Source: Cucumis sativus (taxonomy: Eukaryota; Streptophyta; Magnoliopsida; Cucurbitales; Cucurbitaceae). From it: 64,000 nt of DNA. Below are positions 11,274 to 38,983 of this stretch, one piece after another. The stretch is from assembly GCF_000004075.3 (NCBI RefSeq), contig NC_026655.2:24227489-24291488 (forward strand), read 5' to 3'. The notes beneath the pieces are model-generated. The model was not told where the DNA came from, did not search any database, and was given only the letters and a program-made list of their open reading frames with translations. The stretch's first letter is position 1. Each line of letters begins with the position of its first letter. The position numbers and the translations under genes are program-made.

Positions 11274-13490
11274 TCATGGGTTGTATTTATATGAAGTTGA
11301 AGCTTCTTGCATGGGCTCCCATTCTTCAAATGTTGTTTCTAAAATCTTATTCCAATCACTTGAGTTCCTTTGCTCACTTACTTCTAAGTTTTCTTCAAAA
11401 CCTTCACTTCCCATGCCTTCATATTCAAGCAAATCTTGCCTCTTCATGTAATAATAATAATAAAATAAAATAAATACAAAGTGAGAATTTTAAAATAAAT
11501 GTCGTCTTAAGTTGATGAAGAAAGTCATCAAACCTTGAAGCTTGGAGCAAAGCTTTTGACAAGAGGGACACATTCCATAGCATTAGTGACCATTGCATTC
11601 CATGACTTGTTTGACACATTCTTACCAAGTAACTTCATCAATGCATGAAAAGGGAAATTGGTTTAACAACTTTTAGATCATTATCTAAATAAAAATGGGT
11701 AAGTGACGAAGAACTTCGATGATACTTTTTTAAGTTTACCTTTCTTAAGTAAAGAGGACCCTTTTCTTCATAAGTTCTTAAAAAATCATCAACCGTTTTG
11801 ATGCCTTGAGAAGATAAGATTTTATGATAAACACCATTTCTTCTAATTCTTTCTAATCTCCATATCTCGTCTTCCCTTTGTGGAGGGTGGTGCTTCTTGC
11901 TCCCTGGTTAAACAATTGAAGCAAAAACAAACCATGTATATATTAGAAAGAAAGAAAAAGAAAAGGTTTAATTTGAGAGAAAATAGCTAGGTTTAATTTG
12001 AGTTATAAAACATAAAATAGTTAACTACCTTCTCCTCGATTTTCTAAGACTCTGAATGGTTGAGATACAGCTTCTCTAATTCTTGGAAACTTGCCATGAG
12101 TTTTGTCATCCACAATTCTTAATCCTAATCTAAATTGTTTGGATCTCACCCAGCTTGAATTGTCAGTGAAACTCAAACTCTTGATGACCCCAACTCCATT
12201 TTTGAGATGAAGTTTCAAATCATTACCCACGATTAATGGCCTTTTTCCATTCCTTTGAGACAAAATGTTTCGGCTCATGAACTCGTCCGAGTCTCCGTCG
12301 AGGACGATGACCTCAATTTGTGCTATCGACAACAGTCCGTTGGAGAGGATGGCATTGGAATTCTTGACATCAATAAGTGCAACTTGTAATGCATCACCAT
12401 TGCCCGTTTCTATCTCGTTGTTGGTAAAAATAGTGGAAGGAATTTGGTTGAGAAAACATAAACTAAACTTGGTTGTTTCTTCATTGTTATGATTATTTCG
12501 TTGGATAGCGCTGAAAGAAATAATGATAAAGTGAAACAAAACAGTGCAAAGATATTAATTAATTAGGAGTTTGAAAGCAAACAATGAGAAGTAATTAAAT
12601 TTTTTTTCTAAAAAATAGAAATTAACCTTGAAGATAACGATAGAAGAAATTGATCAGTGTAAGACGACAGAAGCTTTCTATCAAATTCCTTACTGACCTG
12701 AAAAGGAAAAAAAAAAAAATTAATGAAACAACTTTGAATCTTGATAGTGCAAAAAGTGATCACGATTTGTTTTGAAAATGGTAAACTTTTGGAATTTCCC
12801 ACTGGACATAATTTGTGGAGTTTAGTGAATGAGAACAAAATTATAGATAGGTTCAATTGGGGAGAGGAAGAAGTCATTTCAATGAGGAGTTTGGTTGAAG
12901 ATCCTATTGAAAAAATCAAGAGATCTGATGATGTCTATAACACATACCGAGGATACTCAGAGTCAATATTTGATGTTGAAATAAAACATTTTGTTATTTA
13001 ATAAACTCAAGGGTTACGATTTTGATACCTCTAATTACCTCTCATTTGTTACAATCAAAGATGAAACTAAGGGTATCTACAGATCGAATGGTTATGACGA
13101 TAATTGTTGGGTGTTTAAAACAAGAACAAGACGGATGAAGGAATAAATGGGTGTACGTGTACCGAATATCTAAACTAAGTTGACACATTCATAATACTCT
13201 CAAGAAGAGAGATCATGAAAAGAAAATTACTCTTAATTTACTCAAAATCAAGAGTAGAAAAGAGATAGAGATCAAAGAGATTAAAATTACCCGGCGAAAA
13301 ATAGTATCTTCCATTTGAGACAAGAATTGAGGAGTAAAAAATCTATCTACAATGTCGGACGGGTCTTCAGAACTAAGAAAAACAAAAACACCCCATGTTT
13401 GTAAATCTAATGATCACAAAATTCTTAACAAAAGAAGACGAAGAGGAAGAGGAGGAAGAAGAGGAAGAGGAAGAAGAGGAAGAGGAAGAA

Positions 13491-13522
<32 letters not shown>

Positions 13523-13719
13523 AGAAGAGGAAGAAGAAGAAGAGGAAGAAGAAGAAGAGGAAGAGGAAGAAGAAGAAGAAGAAGAAGAAGAGGAAGAGGA
13601 AGAAGAAGAAGAAGAAAAGCAAACCCAGGTGTTGGAATAGAGTTGGATGTTATTTTAGGGCTAGTTTCAGAAGGTCGATAATGAAGGTTTTGAAAGTCTC
13701 TCTTTCTGTCACTCTCCAT
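11274..13719 (-). CDS. CBP60-like protein, tandem copy A
   Basis: Seven-exon model: 13625-13719, 13291-13372, 12627-12697, 12029-12510, 11740-11903, 11534-11632 and 11274-11441, predicted 386 aa with all phases consistent. Exon 4 encodes the CBP60 core: FLNQIPSTIFTNNEI, GKRPLIVGNDLKLHLKNGV and FTDNSSWVRSKQFRLG. Exon 5 encodes SKKHHPP...DEIWRLERI and the H-x-x-L/GI segment. Exon 6 encodes LLGKNVSNKSWNAMVTNA. CBP60s are plant-specific DNA-binding proteins, several of which bind calmodulin and induce salicylic-acid biosynthesis genes. The N-terminal exon has the basic and Pro-rich opening (MESDRKRDFQ). Compared with copy B, one extra base near 11279 shifts the last codons and ends the protein at SYKYNP. 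Intron 1 contains a long pyrimidine tract. It looks intact, but it is unknown whether it binds calmodulin; the C-terminus is short and acidic. Confidence 0.85.
13434..13618 (+). repeat. GAA/GAG microsatellite in intron 1 of CBP60-A
   Basis: About 185 bp of almost pure GAA and GAG triplets on the plus strand, which is a CTT/CTC pyrimidine tract in gene orientation, placed between donor 13624 and acceptor 13373. It opens long poly-Glu and poly-Leu frames that are artefacts of the repeat. Confidence 0.9.
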
Positions 13720-27882: not shown

Positions 27883-30714
27883 TTACATATCTTCCACTTC
27901 ATGGTTGTATTTATATGAAGTTGAAGCTTCTTGCATGGACTCCCATTCTTCAACTGTTGTCTCTAAAAACTTATTCCAATCATTTGAGTTCCTTTGCTCA
28001 CTTCCTTCTAAGTCTCCTTCTAAACCTTCACTTCCCATGCATTCATATTCAAACATATCTTGCCTCTTCAAGTTCATGTAATAAAAAAAAAAAGAACTAG
28101 AAAAGTGAGAAGTATTTCGATTTGTTTGAATTGACTTTTAAAATAGATTTCGTCTTAATTTAATTAGTTTATGAGGAAGAGTCGTCAAACCTCAAAGCTT
28201 GGAGCAAAGTTTTTGTCAAGAGGAACACATTCCAAAGCATTAGTGACCATTGCATTCCATGACTTGTTTGACACCTTCTTACCAAGTAACTTCATGATCA
28301 ATGCATGAAAAGGAAATTGGTTTAACAACTTTTAGATCATTATCTAAATAAAAATGGGTAAGTGACGAAGAACTTCGATGATACTTTTTTAAGTTTACCT
28401 TTCTTAAGTAAAGAGGACCCTTTTCTTCATAAGTTCTTAAAAAATCATCAACCGTTTTGATGCCTTGAGAAGATAATATTTTATGATAAACACCATTTCT
28501 TCTAATTCTTTCTAATCTCCATATCTCGTCTTCCCTTTGTGGAGGGTGGTGCTTCTTGCTCCCTACATTGAAGCAAAACAAACTATGTATGTATTAGAAA
28601 GAAAGAAGAAAAAAATGTTCAGTTTAATTTGAATAAAAAAATATAAAATAGTTAACTACCTTTTCCTCGATGATCCAAGACTCTAAATGGTTGAGATACA
28701 GATTCTCTAATTCTTGGAAACTTGCCATAAATTTTATCATCCGCAATTCTTAAACCTAATCGAAACTGTTTGGATCTCACCCAACTTGAATTGTCTGTGA
28801 AGCTCAAACTCTTGATGAACCCAACTCCATTTTTGAGATGAAGTTTCAAATCATTACCCACAATTAAGGGCCTTTTTCCATCCCTTCGAGACAAAATGTT
28901 TTGGCTCATGAACTCTTCCGAGTCTCCGTCGAGGACGATGACCTCAATTTGTGCTATCGACAATGGCCCGTCGGAGACGATGGCATTGGAATGATTGACA
29001 TCAATAAGTGCAACTTGTAATGCATCACCATTCCCCATATCTATCTCGTTGTTGGTAAAAATAGTGGAAGGGATTTGGTTGAGAAAACATAACCTAAACT
29101 TGGTTGTTTCTTCATTGTTATGATTATTTAGTTGGATAGTGCTGCAAAAAACAATCATAAAGTGAAACAAAACCATGCAAAGATATTAATTAATTAGGAG
29201 GGTGAATGCAAACAGTGAGAAGTAATTCAATTTTTTTTTGAAAAAATAGAAATTAACCTTGAAGATGACGATGAAAGAAATTGAATGTAAGACATAAACT
29301 GTCTATCAAATTCCTCACTGACCTGAAAAGGAAAAAAAAAAATTAATGAAACTAATTTGAATCTTGATAGTGCAAAAAATGAGGACTGGTTTTTATTTTT
29401 TCTTCTGAAAAAAGATACGGTAGGGTCAGTTAGGATTGGTTTTATTTGGAAGAAAAATGAGGATTGGTTTTAAGAATGGAAAAGGTTTGGAATTTCCCAC
29501 TGGACATAATTTGTGGATGAGAACAAAATTATAGATAGGTTCAATTGGGGAGGGGAAAAGAAGCCATTTCAATGAGGTGAAAAAATCGACTAGAGTTTGG
29601 TTGAGGATTCTATTGAAAAAATCTAGAGTTCTCGTAATCTCTATAACACATACGTAGGAGATACTCGAGTCAATACTTGAGGTGTTGAAAGAAAACATTT
29701 TGTTTTCAAGGGTTTTGATACCTCTAACCTCACATTTTTGTTCTATCAAAGATGAAAGTCACATATCCAGAGGTTGAATAGTTTTGGATTTTGAATATGG
29801 GTGTTTAGACAAGAATAAGACGGATGAAGGGATAAATTATATTGGTGTATGTGTACCGGACATCTTAACTAAGTTGACACATTCATATTACTACCCTCGT
29901 CATACTAGAATTGGTCTAGAGAAGTGATTCATAGCCAAGAACGATAGGAACAAGATCGAGCAAGAGGAGAGATCATGAGAAGAAAAGTACTCTTAATTTA
30001 CACACAAAATCAAGAGTACTAGAAAAGAGATAGAGAAGGAGATTGAAATTACCAGCCGACAAAGAATAGCTTCCATTTGAGACCATAATTGAGGTGACAA
30101 AATGTTAGCTACAATGTCGGACGCGGCTTCAGAACTAAGAAAAAGAAAAACACCCCAAGTTCGTAAATCTAATGATCGCAAAATCCATAACAAAAAAAGA
30201 AAAGAAGAAGAAGAGCAAACCAAGGTGTTGGGATAGAGTTAGATGTTATTTTAGGGCTAGTTTCAGAAGGTCGATATGTTGGAGGCGTTGACGAGCCCAC
30301 TCTAAATTTACTCTAAATCTCACAAACTTTTAAGAGAAGAAATTTGTTCTCTTAGAAAACTCAATAACACACAAGAGAAGAATGTTGTTCTCTTGAAACT
30401 CACTTACTTTCTAAAACTCAATTTGCTTCTATTGATTTGATTCTTTTTATCTTTTGTATACAAATGAAGGAAATGATCTCTATATATAGTATTCAAGAGA
30501 CACTTCCTAAAAGACACAAAATAAATGAAGTACATGAATACATACCATTCATGTACTTGAATAATTACATGTATCTAGAAATGCATATGTATCTTGAAAC
30601 TAGAAATGTATCTATTAATGTGTTATCCATAATGTATCTAGCTTATTAATTTCTAACACGATATTCATGTTCATTGTGAAGGTTTTGAAAGTCCCTCTTT
30701 TTGTCGTTCTCCAT
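27883..30714 (-). pseudogene. CBP60-like tandem copy B, exon 1 split by a solo LTR
   Basis: Seven exons parallel those of copy A: exon 1 in two pieces (30664-30714 and 30221-30276) flanking an LTR, then 30053-30134, 29258-29322, 28660-29141, 28399-28562, 28191-28289 and 27883-28065. All downstream splice sites, phases and the CBP60 core (GKRPLIVGNDLKLHLKNGV, FTDNSSWVRSKQFRLG) are intact, and exons 2, 4, 5 and 6 have exactly the lengths of A. The only break seen is the LTR: reading from the ATG runs into it after about 20 codons and stops at TAA. The full-length protein is therefore lost. A 5'-truncated product starting at an in-frame ATG in exon 2 (SQMEAILCRL) is conceivable if transcription starts in the LTR. 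Confidence 0.8.
30277..30658 (-). mobile_element. Copia-like solo LTR in exon 1 of CBP60-B
   Basis: A 382-bp element with TG...CA ends (TGTTGGA at 30277 and TCTAACA ending at 30658) flanked by an exact 5-bp target duplication CGATA (30272-30276 and 30659-30663). On the minus strand it reads TGTTAGAAATTAATAAGC..., with a TATA box at about 30479-30488 and an A-rich region after it, the layout of a Ty1/copia LTR. No internal retrotransposon domains flank it, so it is a solo LTR left by recombination. Its TATA points in the sense direction of CBP60-B. Confidence 0.9.
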
Positions 30715-32739: not shown

Positions 32740-34575
32740 ATTGTCATTATCAACATATATTATGCTCATCCAGCTCGGAGCTCCAATAGATCTCCATTTT
32801 CATGGAGATTTTCTGCTTTGCCTTTTTCTCTAGACCTTTCTTTTGAAGATCAATGGACTGCTCATCTCTCAGTCTCAGATACACGGCCACCGCACCAATT
32901 TGGCTGCCATTGCCTTATGCGGTTACGTGCATTTAGTTTCAAGCACCAGTCCCACCGTTTCGCTTCTCTATTGTTTCCTAAATTTGTTGTATGCGTCGGT
33001 CGATTGCGTGTATTTACTGTGCCATCTCTCTTGCGACGTACTTCAATCTGAGCCGAGCCAAAAAAATGACGTCTCGTGATTCCTCCGGTTCCGACAATGG
33101 CCTATTACCTCTTACTGTTTCCACTTCCAGCCGACGTCACGATGTTGAGTCTGGACTCTCCTCCGGCGAAAGCATTGACGAGGAGAAAGAAGAGGGTGTA
33201 TCGGATTCCTTCGACATTGACAACACCAAAAATGTCCCTCTACAGATACTCAAGCGATGGTGGCAAGCTGCATCGGTGCTTAATGCCTCTTGGAGATTTC
33301 GATATACTTTGGACTTAAAAAAGGAGGAAGAGAAAGAACGAAGGAGGTGGATGATTAGAGCGCATGTACAAGTGATAAGGGCAACGCTGCTTTTCAAATT
33401 GGCAGGGGAACAACAAATTTGTTCATCAGTATCACCTCCACTGTCAAGTAGTGACTATTACATTAGTTTGGAACAACTTGCTTCATTGACTCGTGATCAA
33501 AACTTGTCTTCTTTACAACAGCATGGAGGAGTTAAAGGCTTATCAAATTTGTTGACAACAGTACCGAGAAAGGAATATCAGGAGATGAAACTGATTTGCT
33601 TAACAGAAGAAACGCATTTGGATCAAATAAGTATCCAAGTAAATTGAAAAAGGACGGAGCTTCTTGAGATTTCTTTAGGAAGGTTGGCAAGATTTAACCT
33701 TAATCATCTTGATCATAGCTGGAGAGGGTGTGGGTATTAAAACAGAGGGTGTAGAGGAAGGATGGTATGATGGAGAAAGTATTGGCTTTGCTGTGTTTCT
33801 TGTCATAATGGTCACAGCGATTAGTGATTATCAAAAGTCCCTTCAGGTTCAGAATTTAAATGAGAAAAAGCAGAACATATACAAGTAGCTAAAGATCTTC
33901 AGCGATGGTAGAACTTTAAGGGTCTCGATATTTGACCTTGATGTTGGGGATGTTGTACCTCTTAAAATTGGAGATCAGATCCTTACTTGATGGAATATTG
34001 ATCACTGGGCATTCACTTGCCATAGATGAATCTAGCAATATGACAGGCGAAAGTAAGATTGTTCGAAAGGAGCAGAAGGCACCCTTTTTGATGTCTAGTT
34101 GTAAGGTTGCAGATGGAGTTGGTACCATGATGGTAACTGCCGTTGGAATCAATACTGAATGGGGATTGTTGATGGCAAGTATCTCAGAGGATACTGGGGA
34201 AGAAACTCCCTTGCAGGTCCGGTTGAATGGAGTTGCAACTTTCATCGGCATAGTTGGGCTTGCAGTTGCAATTTCTGTGCTAGCCATCCTTTTGGGCAGA
34301 TACTTCACGGGAAATACACACGATGCAAATGGGAACCCTCCATTTCGGCGTGGCCATACGAGTCAAAGTGATGCTGTCAAATGGAGTTATTAAAATGGTT
34401 ACTGTTGCTGTTACTATTGTGGTTGTGGCAATTCCGGAAGGTTTACCTTTGGCTGTCACCCTAACACTAGCGTACTCCACGAGGAAAATGATGGCTGGTA
34501 AAGCACTGGTTCTTAGGCTGTCTGCTTGTGAAACCATGTGCTCTACAACAACAATATGCAGCGATAAAGACTAGG
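32740..34575 (+). pseudogene. Intronless, 3'-truncated plasma-membrane-type Ca2+-ATPase pseudogene (ACA8/9/10-like)
   Basis: After a leader-like stretch (32760-33065), the ATG at 33066 opens an ACA-type N-terminus: LNASWRFRYTLDLKKEEE, then IRAHVQVIRATLLFKLAG, HGGVKGLSNLL, IKTEGVEEGWYDG, a TGES actuator motif (with an extra Asn before it), the GINTEWGLLMASISED segment, [15 protein letters not shown] and finally ICSDK, the phosphorylation site, where similarity ends and a stop follows. The ATP-binding domain and later membrane segments are missing. Lesions include frameshifts near 33560, 33645 and 33965, in-frame stops near 33679 and 33885, and a frameshift near 34370. All segments abut without introns, although plant ACA8-type genes are intron-rich, so this looks like a retrocopy cut at its 3' end. 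The N-terminal calmodulin-binding domain is still readable. Confidence 0.85.
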
Positions 34576-36563: not shown

Positions 36564-38983
36564 TCATTTGTATTTGGTAGTATGATTGGTTTCACAATAT
36601 GCATTTACATAGTCCACTTCATGTTGCATGGGTTCCCATTCTTCAAGTGTTGCTGTCTCTAAAAACTGATTCCAGTCACTTGAGTTCCTTTGCTCACTTA
36701 CTTCTATGTTTCCTTCAACACCTTCAGTTCCCATGCCTTCATATTCAAACAAATCTTGCCTCTTCATGTAATAAAAAAAATACTAGGCAAGTGAGAAGCA
36801 TTTCCATATAGATACGCGTTTGGATTGAATTTTAAAATAGACTTTGTCTTAAGTTTATGAAGAAAGAGTCATCAAACCTCAAAGCTTGGAACAAAGTTTT
36901 TGTCAAGAGGGACACATTCCAAAGCATTAGTGACCATTGCATTCCAGGACTTGTTTGAGACCTTCTTACCAAGTAACTTCATTAATGCATGAAAAGGGAA
37001 ATTAATTATTAATTTAACAAACTTTTAGATCATATCTAAATAAATAAAAATGGTAAGTGATGAGAACTTTGATAATACTCTTTTAAATTAGTTTACCTTT
37101 CTCAAGTAAAGAGGACCCTTTTCTTCATAAGTTTTTAAAAAATCATCAACGGTTTTGATGTCATGAGAAGATAAGATTTTATGATAAACACCATTTCTTC
37201 TAATTCTTTCTAATCTCCATATCTCGTCTTTCCTTTGTGGAGGATGGTGCTTCTTGCTCCCTAGTTAAACAATTGAAGCAAAACAAACCATGTATATATT
37301 AGAAAGAAAGAAACAAAAAAGTTAGGTTTAATTAGAGAGAAAATAACTCGGTTTAATTTGAATAAAAAAAACATATAAATAGTTAACTACCTTCTCCCCG
37401 ATGATCCAAGACTCTGAATGGTTGAGAAACAGCTTCTCTAATTTTTGGAATCTTACCTTGAATTTTCTCTTCCACAATTCGTAATCCTAATCGGAATTGT
37501 TTCGATCTCACCCAGCTTGAATTATCAGTGAAGCTCAAACTTTTGATGAACCCAACTCCATTTTTGAGATGAAGATTCAAATCATTACCCACAATTAATG
37601 GCCTTTTTCCATCCCTCGGAGGCAAAATGTTTTGGCTATTGAACTCGTCTGAGTCTCCATTGAGGACGGTGACCTCAATTTGTGCTATCGACAAAGGACC
37701 GTCAGAGACGATGGCATAATTATTGACATCAATAATTGCAACGTGTAATCCATGATCATTCCCCGTTTCTATCTCGTTGTTGGTAAAAATAGTGGAAGGG
37801 ATTTGGTTGAGAAAACATAAACTAAACTTGGTTGTTTCTTCATTGTTATGATTATTTAGCTGGATAGTGCTGCAAAAAACAATCATAAAGTGAATCAAAA
37901 CAGTGCAAAGATATTAATTAATTAGGAAAGTGTGAATGCAAACAATGAGAAGTAGTTCATTTTTTTTTTTAAAAAAAAAGAAACTAACCTTGAAGATGAC
38001 GATGGAAGAAATTGAATGTAAGACATAAACTTTCTATCAAATTCCTCGATGACCTGAAAAGGAAAAAAAAGAAAGAAGTTTGAATTTTGATTGTGCAAAA
38101 AATGAGATTGTTTTAAAAAATGAAAATGTTAGAATTTCCCACTAGACATAATTTGTGGAGTTTAGTAGATGGGAACAAAATTATAGATTGGCTTTGTAAA
38201 TTCGACTAAAGTTTCACATCGGTTAGATAAGAGAATGATCTTGGATATATATAAGCGAGAAAAACTATCTCAATTGAGACAACATTATATGATCGAGTAG
38301 ATTTCCTGAGAGGTGTTTATTGTCCTAAGTGCCATTTCAATGAGATAAAAAGATGGATAAGAGTCTGGTTGAGGAACCCAGTGAAACACTACGTAGGATA
38401 CTCAAAGTTATATAACAAAAATGAAGCTCGGTAATAGTTGTGGATAGAAGTGATTCATAGCCAAGAACGATAGGATCTGGAAAAGAGATAGAGAAGGAGA
38501 TTAAAATTACCAGCCCACGAAGAATATCTTGTATTTGAGACCATAATTGAGGAGACAAATCGTTAGCTACAATGTCGGACGTGGCTTCAGAACTAAGAAA
38601 AACAAAAGCACCCCGTGTTCGTAAAATCGTTAATGATCACAAAATTCTTGACAAAAGAAGAAGAAGAAGAAGATCAGCAGCTTGAAAACAAAGAAAAACA
38701 AGAACACCACGTGTTCGTAAAATCATTAACGATCACAAAATCCTTGGCAAAAGAAGAAGAAGAAGAAGAGCAGCTTGAGAACAAAGAAACACAAGAACAC
38801 CACGTGTTCGTACAATCGTTAACGATCACAAAATCCTTGACAAAAAAAGAAGAAGATTCAAGAAGCAGACCGGACAGGTGTTGGAATAGAGTTGGATGCC
38901 CTTTTAGGGCTAGTTTCAGAAGGTCGATCATGACCATGTTCATTCTTAAGATTTTGGAAGTCCCTCTTCTTTTGTCTCTCCAT
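36564..38983 (-). CDS. CBP60-like protein, tandem copy C
   Basis: Seven-exon model: 38871-38983, 38511-38592, 37990-38054, 37391-37869, 37097-37260, 36878-36976 and 36564-36761, predicted 399 aa. Every junction is GT-AG and every phase matches copies A, B and D. Exon 1 (MERQKKRDFQNLK...) has the basic, KRA-containing opening. Exon 2 encodes SDIVANDLSPQLWSQIQDIL. Exon 4 holds the conserved core (GKRPLIVGNDLNLHLKNGV, FTDNSSWVRSKQFRLG) with one codon fewer than A. The C-terminus differs: a small deletion removes the SYKYN segment of A and B and changes the frame, giving a tail ending TNHTTKYK. The likely role is DNA-binding transcription regulation in stress or immune responses, by family. The exon 1 donor (CCG-GTCTGC) is the weakest part of the model. 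Confidence 0.85.
38593..38860 (-). repeat. Three tandem copies of the intron 1 3' end in CBP60-C
   Basis: Units of about 85 bp start near 38593, 38678 and 38768. Each contains a CACCACGTGTTCGTA- or CACCCCGTGTTCGTA-type word, GATCACAAAATCCTTG and a GAAGAA run. The unit next to exon 2 includes the real acceptor, and the other two carry similar TTTTCAAG-like acceptors. Copies A and B have only one unit. Confidence 0.85.

Follow-up and report, generated by a model that had tools for sequence, protein, structure and literature searches.

A young solo copia LTR splits exon 1 of a tandem CBP60 gene in cucumber, probably leaving a null or nearly null allele

The 64,000-nucleotide stretch of the Cucumis sativus genome analysed here (NC_026655.2, positions 24,227,489 to 24,291,488, forward strand; hereafter the window, whose own numbering is used for the features described) contains four members, A, B, C and D, of a tandem cluster of CBP60 genes. 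The first exon of one of them, CBP60-B, is interrupted by a retrotransposon LTR. The question raised by this locus is whether the insertion has simply disabled the gene, or whether the LTR now drives a shortened CBP60, as was suggested when the stretch was first annotated.

The protein predicted from gene B matches PF07887 with 125.2 bits (cut-off 25.5) and PF20451, the central domain, with 71.2 bits (cut-off 24.5). By Pfam, these two domains are features of the CBP60 family, and with both matches above cut-off the predicted product of B is that of a CBP60 family member. The exon borders listed in Table 1 are those of a gene model built in this analysis. Exons 2 to 7, together with the split last codon of exon 1, comprise 358 open codons followed by a stop; all six acceptors (exons 2–7) are AG, and the donors of exons 1–6 are GT. 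For exons 6 and 7 the acceptors have no clear pyrimidine tract and are provisional, although the introns of A and C also end in ATGAAG at these places. The native donor of exon 1 fits the consensus poorly (4 of 9 positions), but a donor placed there preserves the reading phase in A and C as well.

The genome has 31 places with PF07887; 13 lie within C1:24.11-24.33 Mb and make up the tandem CBP60 cluster. These 13 places occupy about 215 kb and are found on both strands, while four strong full-domain places lie elsewhere. Another place, at C2:3.42 Mb, falls inside the interval Chr.2: 3400-3490 kb, to which a calmodulin-binding protein gene has been assigned (PMC9222855). Eleven partial matches were located on C78 (seven) and at C5:9.36-9.40 Mb (four). 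Ten of the eleven span position 86 or 87 to 147 of the domain, with scores of 53.1-53.2; they form another group of CBP60 exons or fragments, one that has multiplied recently.

Table 1. Positions in the window of the solo LTR, of its candidate regulatory sites, of the modelled CBP60-B exons and of two uninterrupted paralogues.
Feature	Positions	Strand	Basis
Solo LTR of Ty1/copia element, 382 bp	30277..30658	-	Terminal sequences and identity with LTRs of full-length elements; PBS/PPT orientation
Target site duplication CGATA, gene-downstream side	30272..30276		Read in sequence
Target site duplication CGATA, gene-upstream side	30659..30663		Read in sequence
TATA-like box CTATATATAG at LTR position 170, directed into gene B	30480..30489	-	Sequence; function putative
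Strong splice-donor-like site AAA/GTAAGT, 8 of 9 to consensus	30402..30407	-	Use putative; could join LTR-started RNA to exon 2
CBP60-B exon 1 before LTR, ATG 30714-30712	30659..30714	-	Conserved in A and C
CBP60-B exon 1 after LTR, second duplication copy included	30221..30276	-	Comparison with A and C
CBP60-B exon 2; ATG 30086 out of frame, ATG 30076 in frame	30053..30134	-	Gene model
CBP60-B exon 3	29258..29322	-	Gene model
CBP60-B exon 4, PF07887 domain	28660..29141	-	Gene model and profile match
CBP60-B exon 5, PF20451 domain	28399..28562	-	Gene model and profile match
CBP60-B exon 6	28191..28289	-	Gene model; acceptor provisional
CBP60-B exon 7 to stop	27883..28065	-	Gene model; acceptor provisional
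Paralogue CBP60-A with empty site	11274..13719	-	End counted from stop in translation
Paralogue CBP60-C with empty site	36564..38983	-	End counted from stop in translation

On the + strand, positions 30272-30663 read as CGATA, a 382-bp repeat, and CGATA again. The two duplications are perfect, and a 5-bp match of this kind is expected by chance about once in 1024 cases. The repeat begins with TGTTGG and ends with CTAACA on the + strand, which corresponds to TGTTAG and CCAACA in the sense of the element. Because the entire interval between the two duplications is occupied by the LTR alone, the insertion is a solo LTR. Its class is indicated by the full-length relatives: when one open frame was scanned for domains in each of three internal pieces (three of seven frames of at least 100 aa, taken from relatives other than the closest element), RVT_2 was found in two pieces, and Pol_BBD together with gag_pre-integrs in the third. 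By its ends, its duplications and its full-length relatives, the segment 30277-30658 is a solo LTR of a Ty1/copia retrotransposon, and the initial annotation was right to recognize one in exon 1 of CBP60-B from its TG/CA ends and the CGATA pair.

The orientation of the LTR was read from its full-length relatives. In all five of the full-length pairs whose junctions were read, the primer-binding site (PBS) follows the 5' LTR and the polypurine tract (PPT) precedes the 3' LTR: AAGTGGTATCAGAGC, which we take to be the usual initiator-methionine primer site, stands directly after the former, and the polypurine tract AAGGGGGCA directly before the latter. From these positions, the sense of the LTR is the minus strand, i.e. 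the sense of CBP60-B, as had been proposed; an antisense LTR is rejected by the same PBS and PPT.

The LTR belongs to a family of closely similar copies. Of 85 candidate relatives in the genome, 40 were scored as matches, the CBP60-B LTR itself included, with identities of 97-100%. Twenty of the 40 form 10 same-strand pairs with a spacing of 3.85-4.45 kb, two others are 6.6 kb apart, and 18 are unpaired; the CBP60-B LTR is among the latter, a partner being possible among the unscored candidates. Three of the 10 pairs (at C4:3.01 Mb, on C57 and on C59) share their host flanks and represent assembly or segmental copies of one insertion. The elements at C4:3012677-3016914 and C57:194349-198586 measure about 4.24 kb, about 0.6 kb less than the 4.8-kb members of the family, and the end pieces of the C4 copy contain element-strand open frames of at most 122 aa; in view of their length and of these short frames, the C4 and C57 elements may be non-autonomous. 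A further solo-looking LTR of the same family, at C5:5154800-5155500, is flanked by TTAGA on both sides and differs from the CBP60-B LTR by one gap.

The solo LTR is identical, over 382 of 382 positions, to both LTRs of C4:3012677-3016914 and to both LTRs of its C57 copy. Among the 11 LTR pieces compared, these four were identical to it, and the remaining seven showed 98.7-99.7% identity. The host flanks of the C4 and C57 copies match (1500 of 1500 positions on one side, 99.93% over 1500 on the other), so the four identical LTRs count as one insertion; the C59 copy shows one gap against the solo LTR in one of its LTRs and two in the other. Because the solo LTR is identical to both LTRs of one full-length element located elsewhere, its insertion looks young. 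If substitution rates are assumed to be 1.3e-8 or 7e-9 per site and year, the absence of differences over 382 positions means that it and its sister separated at most about 0.30 or 0.56 million years ago, respectively (95%). Gene conversion between elements could also produce such an apparent youth. The recent insertion first suggested for this LTR is thus borne out by its identity to the sister LTRs and by the perfect duplications.

At the insertion point of CBP60-B, the two nearest tandem paralogues, A and C, carry the uninterrupted sequence CGACCTTCTGAAACTAGCCC, so that the empty site is known from paralogues. In CBP60-B, the frame that starts at ATG 30714 runs through 18 codons and two bases, enters the LTR and reaches a stop, giving a product of 22 residues. 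Exon 1 measures 95, 107 and 113 bases in A, B and C, respectively, and these lengths differ from one another by whole codons, which supports this exon as coding; the possibility that it had been wrongly called was rejected on this ground. Among 17 cucumber gene loci compared, A, B and C alone gave a match to the peptide encoded by exon 1 (E up to 1). The rest of exon 1 and exons 2–7 of CBP60-B contain no lesion, and the LTR is the only break found in the gene, in agreement with the original reading.

The three paralogues were compared further to evaluate the state of the gene. Exon 2 of C was placed by its own sequence for the frame check, and C is then open throughout. The frame of A ends five residues before that of B, while C has a different and longer C-terminal tail (362 vs 358 codons). 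From exon 2 onward, the pairwise dN/dS values are 0.65 (A-B), 0.51 (A-C) and 0.40 (B-C). Values of this size are consistent with weak constraint on A, B and C, with no sign of free decay, and would provide only mild evidence that CBP60-B was functional in the past.

Two other features of this part of the cluster deserve mention. The segment 28563-28264, comprising exon 5 of CBP60-B and the intron that follows, is 99.3% identical to CBP60-A in both of its 150-base bins, whereas the neighbouring bins are at 84-93%; in CBP60-C, only exon 5 shows good conservation (95.3%), and the intron bin does not (85.6%). The pattern suggests recent gene conversion between A and B across a tract that includes the intron. 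Between CBP60-B and CBP60-C, positions 33066-34570 (+ strand) hold an intron-free, frame-broken copy of a gene of a presumably calcium-ATPase-like family, the end at 34570 being the end of the query. Its pieces match 17 separate segments of C7:21301555-21308303 with 80-99% identity (at least 88% in 15 of the 17), and, judged by its sequence, the copy is a processed retropseudogene.

We consider it probable that a recent copia insertion in the sense orientation, now reduced to a solo LTR, has made this tandem CBP60 copy a null or nearly null allele. A copia element inserted into the coding exon 1 of CBP60-B in the sense of the gene, and recombination of the usual kind within its pair of LTRs would then have left a solo LTR. 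RNAs started at the native promoter would meet the early stop, and possibly the poly(A) region of the LTR, so that no full CBP60 would be made, and on this account B would be null or nearly null. A, C and the other members of the cluster would remain beside it. Transcription from the LTR may also occur, and little truncated protein would be expected from it because the first ATG of an LTR-started RNA is out of frame.

This last point bears on the most serious alternative, namely that the LTR drives a truncated CBP60 from an RNA that starts about 30 bases past the TATA box and is spliced to exon 2, yielding a protein of 338 aa or, by reinitiation, of 321 aa. The TATA box that the initial annotation had aimed into the gene does exist in the sense orientation (CTATATATAG at 30489-30480), its role as a promoter being putative. 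All seven sense-strand ATGs of the LTR lie upstream of this box and none downstream, so that a spliced leader would contain no ATG before exon 2. The LTR donor at 30407 fits the consensus better than the native exon-1 donor (8 vs 4 of 9 positions). The LTR-started RNA was modelled with an assumed start at 30455 and with splicing from either donor, and the order of the ATGs was the same in both cases. The first ATG, at 30086 (TCAATT_ATGG; A at -3, G at +4), is out of frame and opens a frame of 13 codons that overlaps the in-frame ATG at 30076. The latter comes second, in a poorer context (TCTCAA_ATGG; C at -3, G at +4), and opens the frame of 338 aa; the third, at 29295 in exon 3, is also in frame and would give 321 aa. 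The in-frame start in exon 2 that had been postulated is thus present, yet it stands behind an earlier, overlapping ATG in better context, and a truncated CBP60-B would need leaky scanning or reinitiation.

A start at 30076 would remove about 55 residues, of which 35 belong to exon 1 and the other 20 to exon 2 with the split codon. The postulated loss of the N-terminal region would be correct to this extent, but no recognized domain would go with it, as the missing residues all precede the first Pfam domain and the 338-aa frame keeps both PF07887 and PF20451. Folding of the leader neither aids nor hinders such a reading, being ordinary (z -0.29; 79 of 200 shuffled sequences give an equal or better fold), and leader structure as a block to translation was rejected for the same reason. 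The downstream in-frame ORF with both Pfam domains, and the fact that solo LTRs can drive genes, as in the precedent of blood-orange Ruby, would count against a null allele, while young LTRs are commonly silenced. On balance, we regard an LTR-driven truncated protein as possible but doubtful, and a plain null allele fits the data at least as well. That CBP60-B is now controlled by the retroelement, with the LTR donor at 30407 joined to exon 2 and the shortened two-domain CBP60 acting as an altered immune regulator, appears improbable.

An equally unlikely proposal is that of a polymorphic site, at which the insertion segregates as a structural variant and affects immunity in a way open to selection; the youth of the insertion (a split within about 0.30 or 0.56 million years) speaks for it. 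Alternatively, splicing might remove most of the LTR as an intron, and the protein would then be almost complete apart from a few inserted residues. All GT/AG pairs were tried in which the donor precedes the first stop and the intron measures at least 60 bases. Two kept the frame, and these very weak cryptic pairs, by which most of the LTR might theoretically be excised, are also counted against a null allele. However, no more than 4 or 5 of 9 consensus positions are matched by their donors (4 by the native donor of exon 1), and we judge this outcome very unlikely. Finally, an old insertion into a gene that was already a pseudogene might be imagined in a duplicated, weakly constrained cluster, but no direct support for it was found, and it is rejected as most improbable by the identity to the sister LTRs, the perfect duplications, and the rest of exon 1 and open exons 2–7 free of other lesions.

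The preferred reading, a recent and probably null allele of CBP60-B, offers a clean, datable case in which a retrotransposon has disabled, or may have rewired, one member of a tandem group of putative immune regulators. The close paralogues A and C provide built-in empty-site controls, and the insertion would be an easy PCR marker to check for segregation of the allele. Among the titles and abstract openings listed in literature searches, no paper on this LTR at CBP60-B was seen; the text consulted of PMC12777003 and PMC11049924 likewise offers nothing about the locus, and the words 'CBP60', 'calmodulin' and 'solo' are absent from the available main text of the pan-genome paper PMC8813957.

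As regards known systems, CBP60-B resembles the Arabidopsis CBP60 family in the presence of PF07887 and PF20451 in the protein, and the function of CBP60g is reported to need calmodulin binding (PMC5877526). CBP60-B differs from that family in being short (about 390 codons by our model) and in its exon-1 peptide, limited to A, B and C among the 17 loci. The insertion itself is an ordinary kind of mutation, with a cucumber precedent in csgl3, a loss-of-function allele described as a 5005-bp copia insertion in exon 4 of CsGL3 (PMC4696102). Both are young copia insertions in a coding exon with a target duplication, and the gene hit in csgl3 is a cucumber transcription factor; that element, however, is full-length, with 222-bp LTRs and a 6-base duplication, whereas in CBP60-B the solo LTR has 382 bp and the duplication 5 bases, and the effect of the insertion is putative. 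The blood-orange Ruby alleles are reported to be driven by a copia LTR, either full or solo (PMC3520747). What they have in common with CBP60-B is the presence, at a regulatory gene, of a solo copia LTR that could provide a transcription start, but the LTR lies in the 5' UTR of Ruby, while in CBP60-B it splits a coding exon (PMC3520747).
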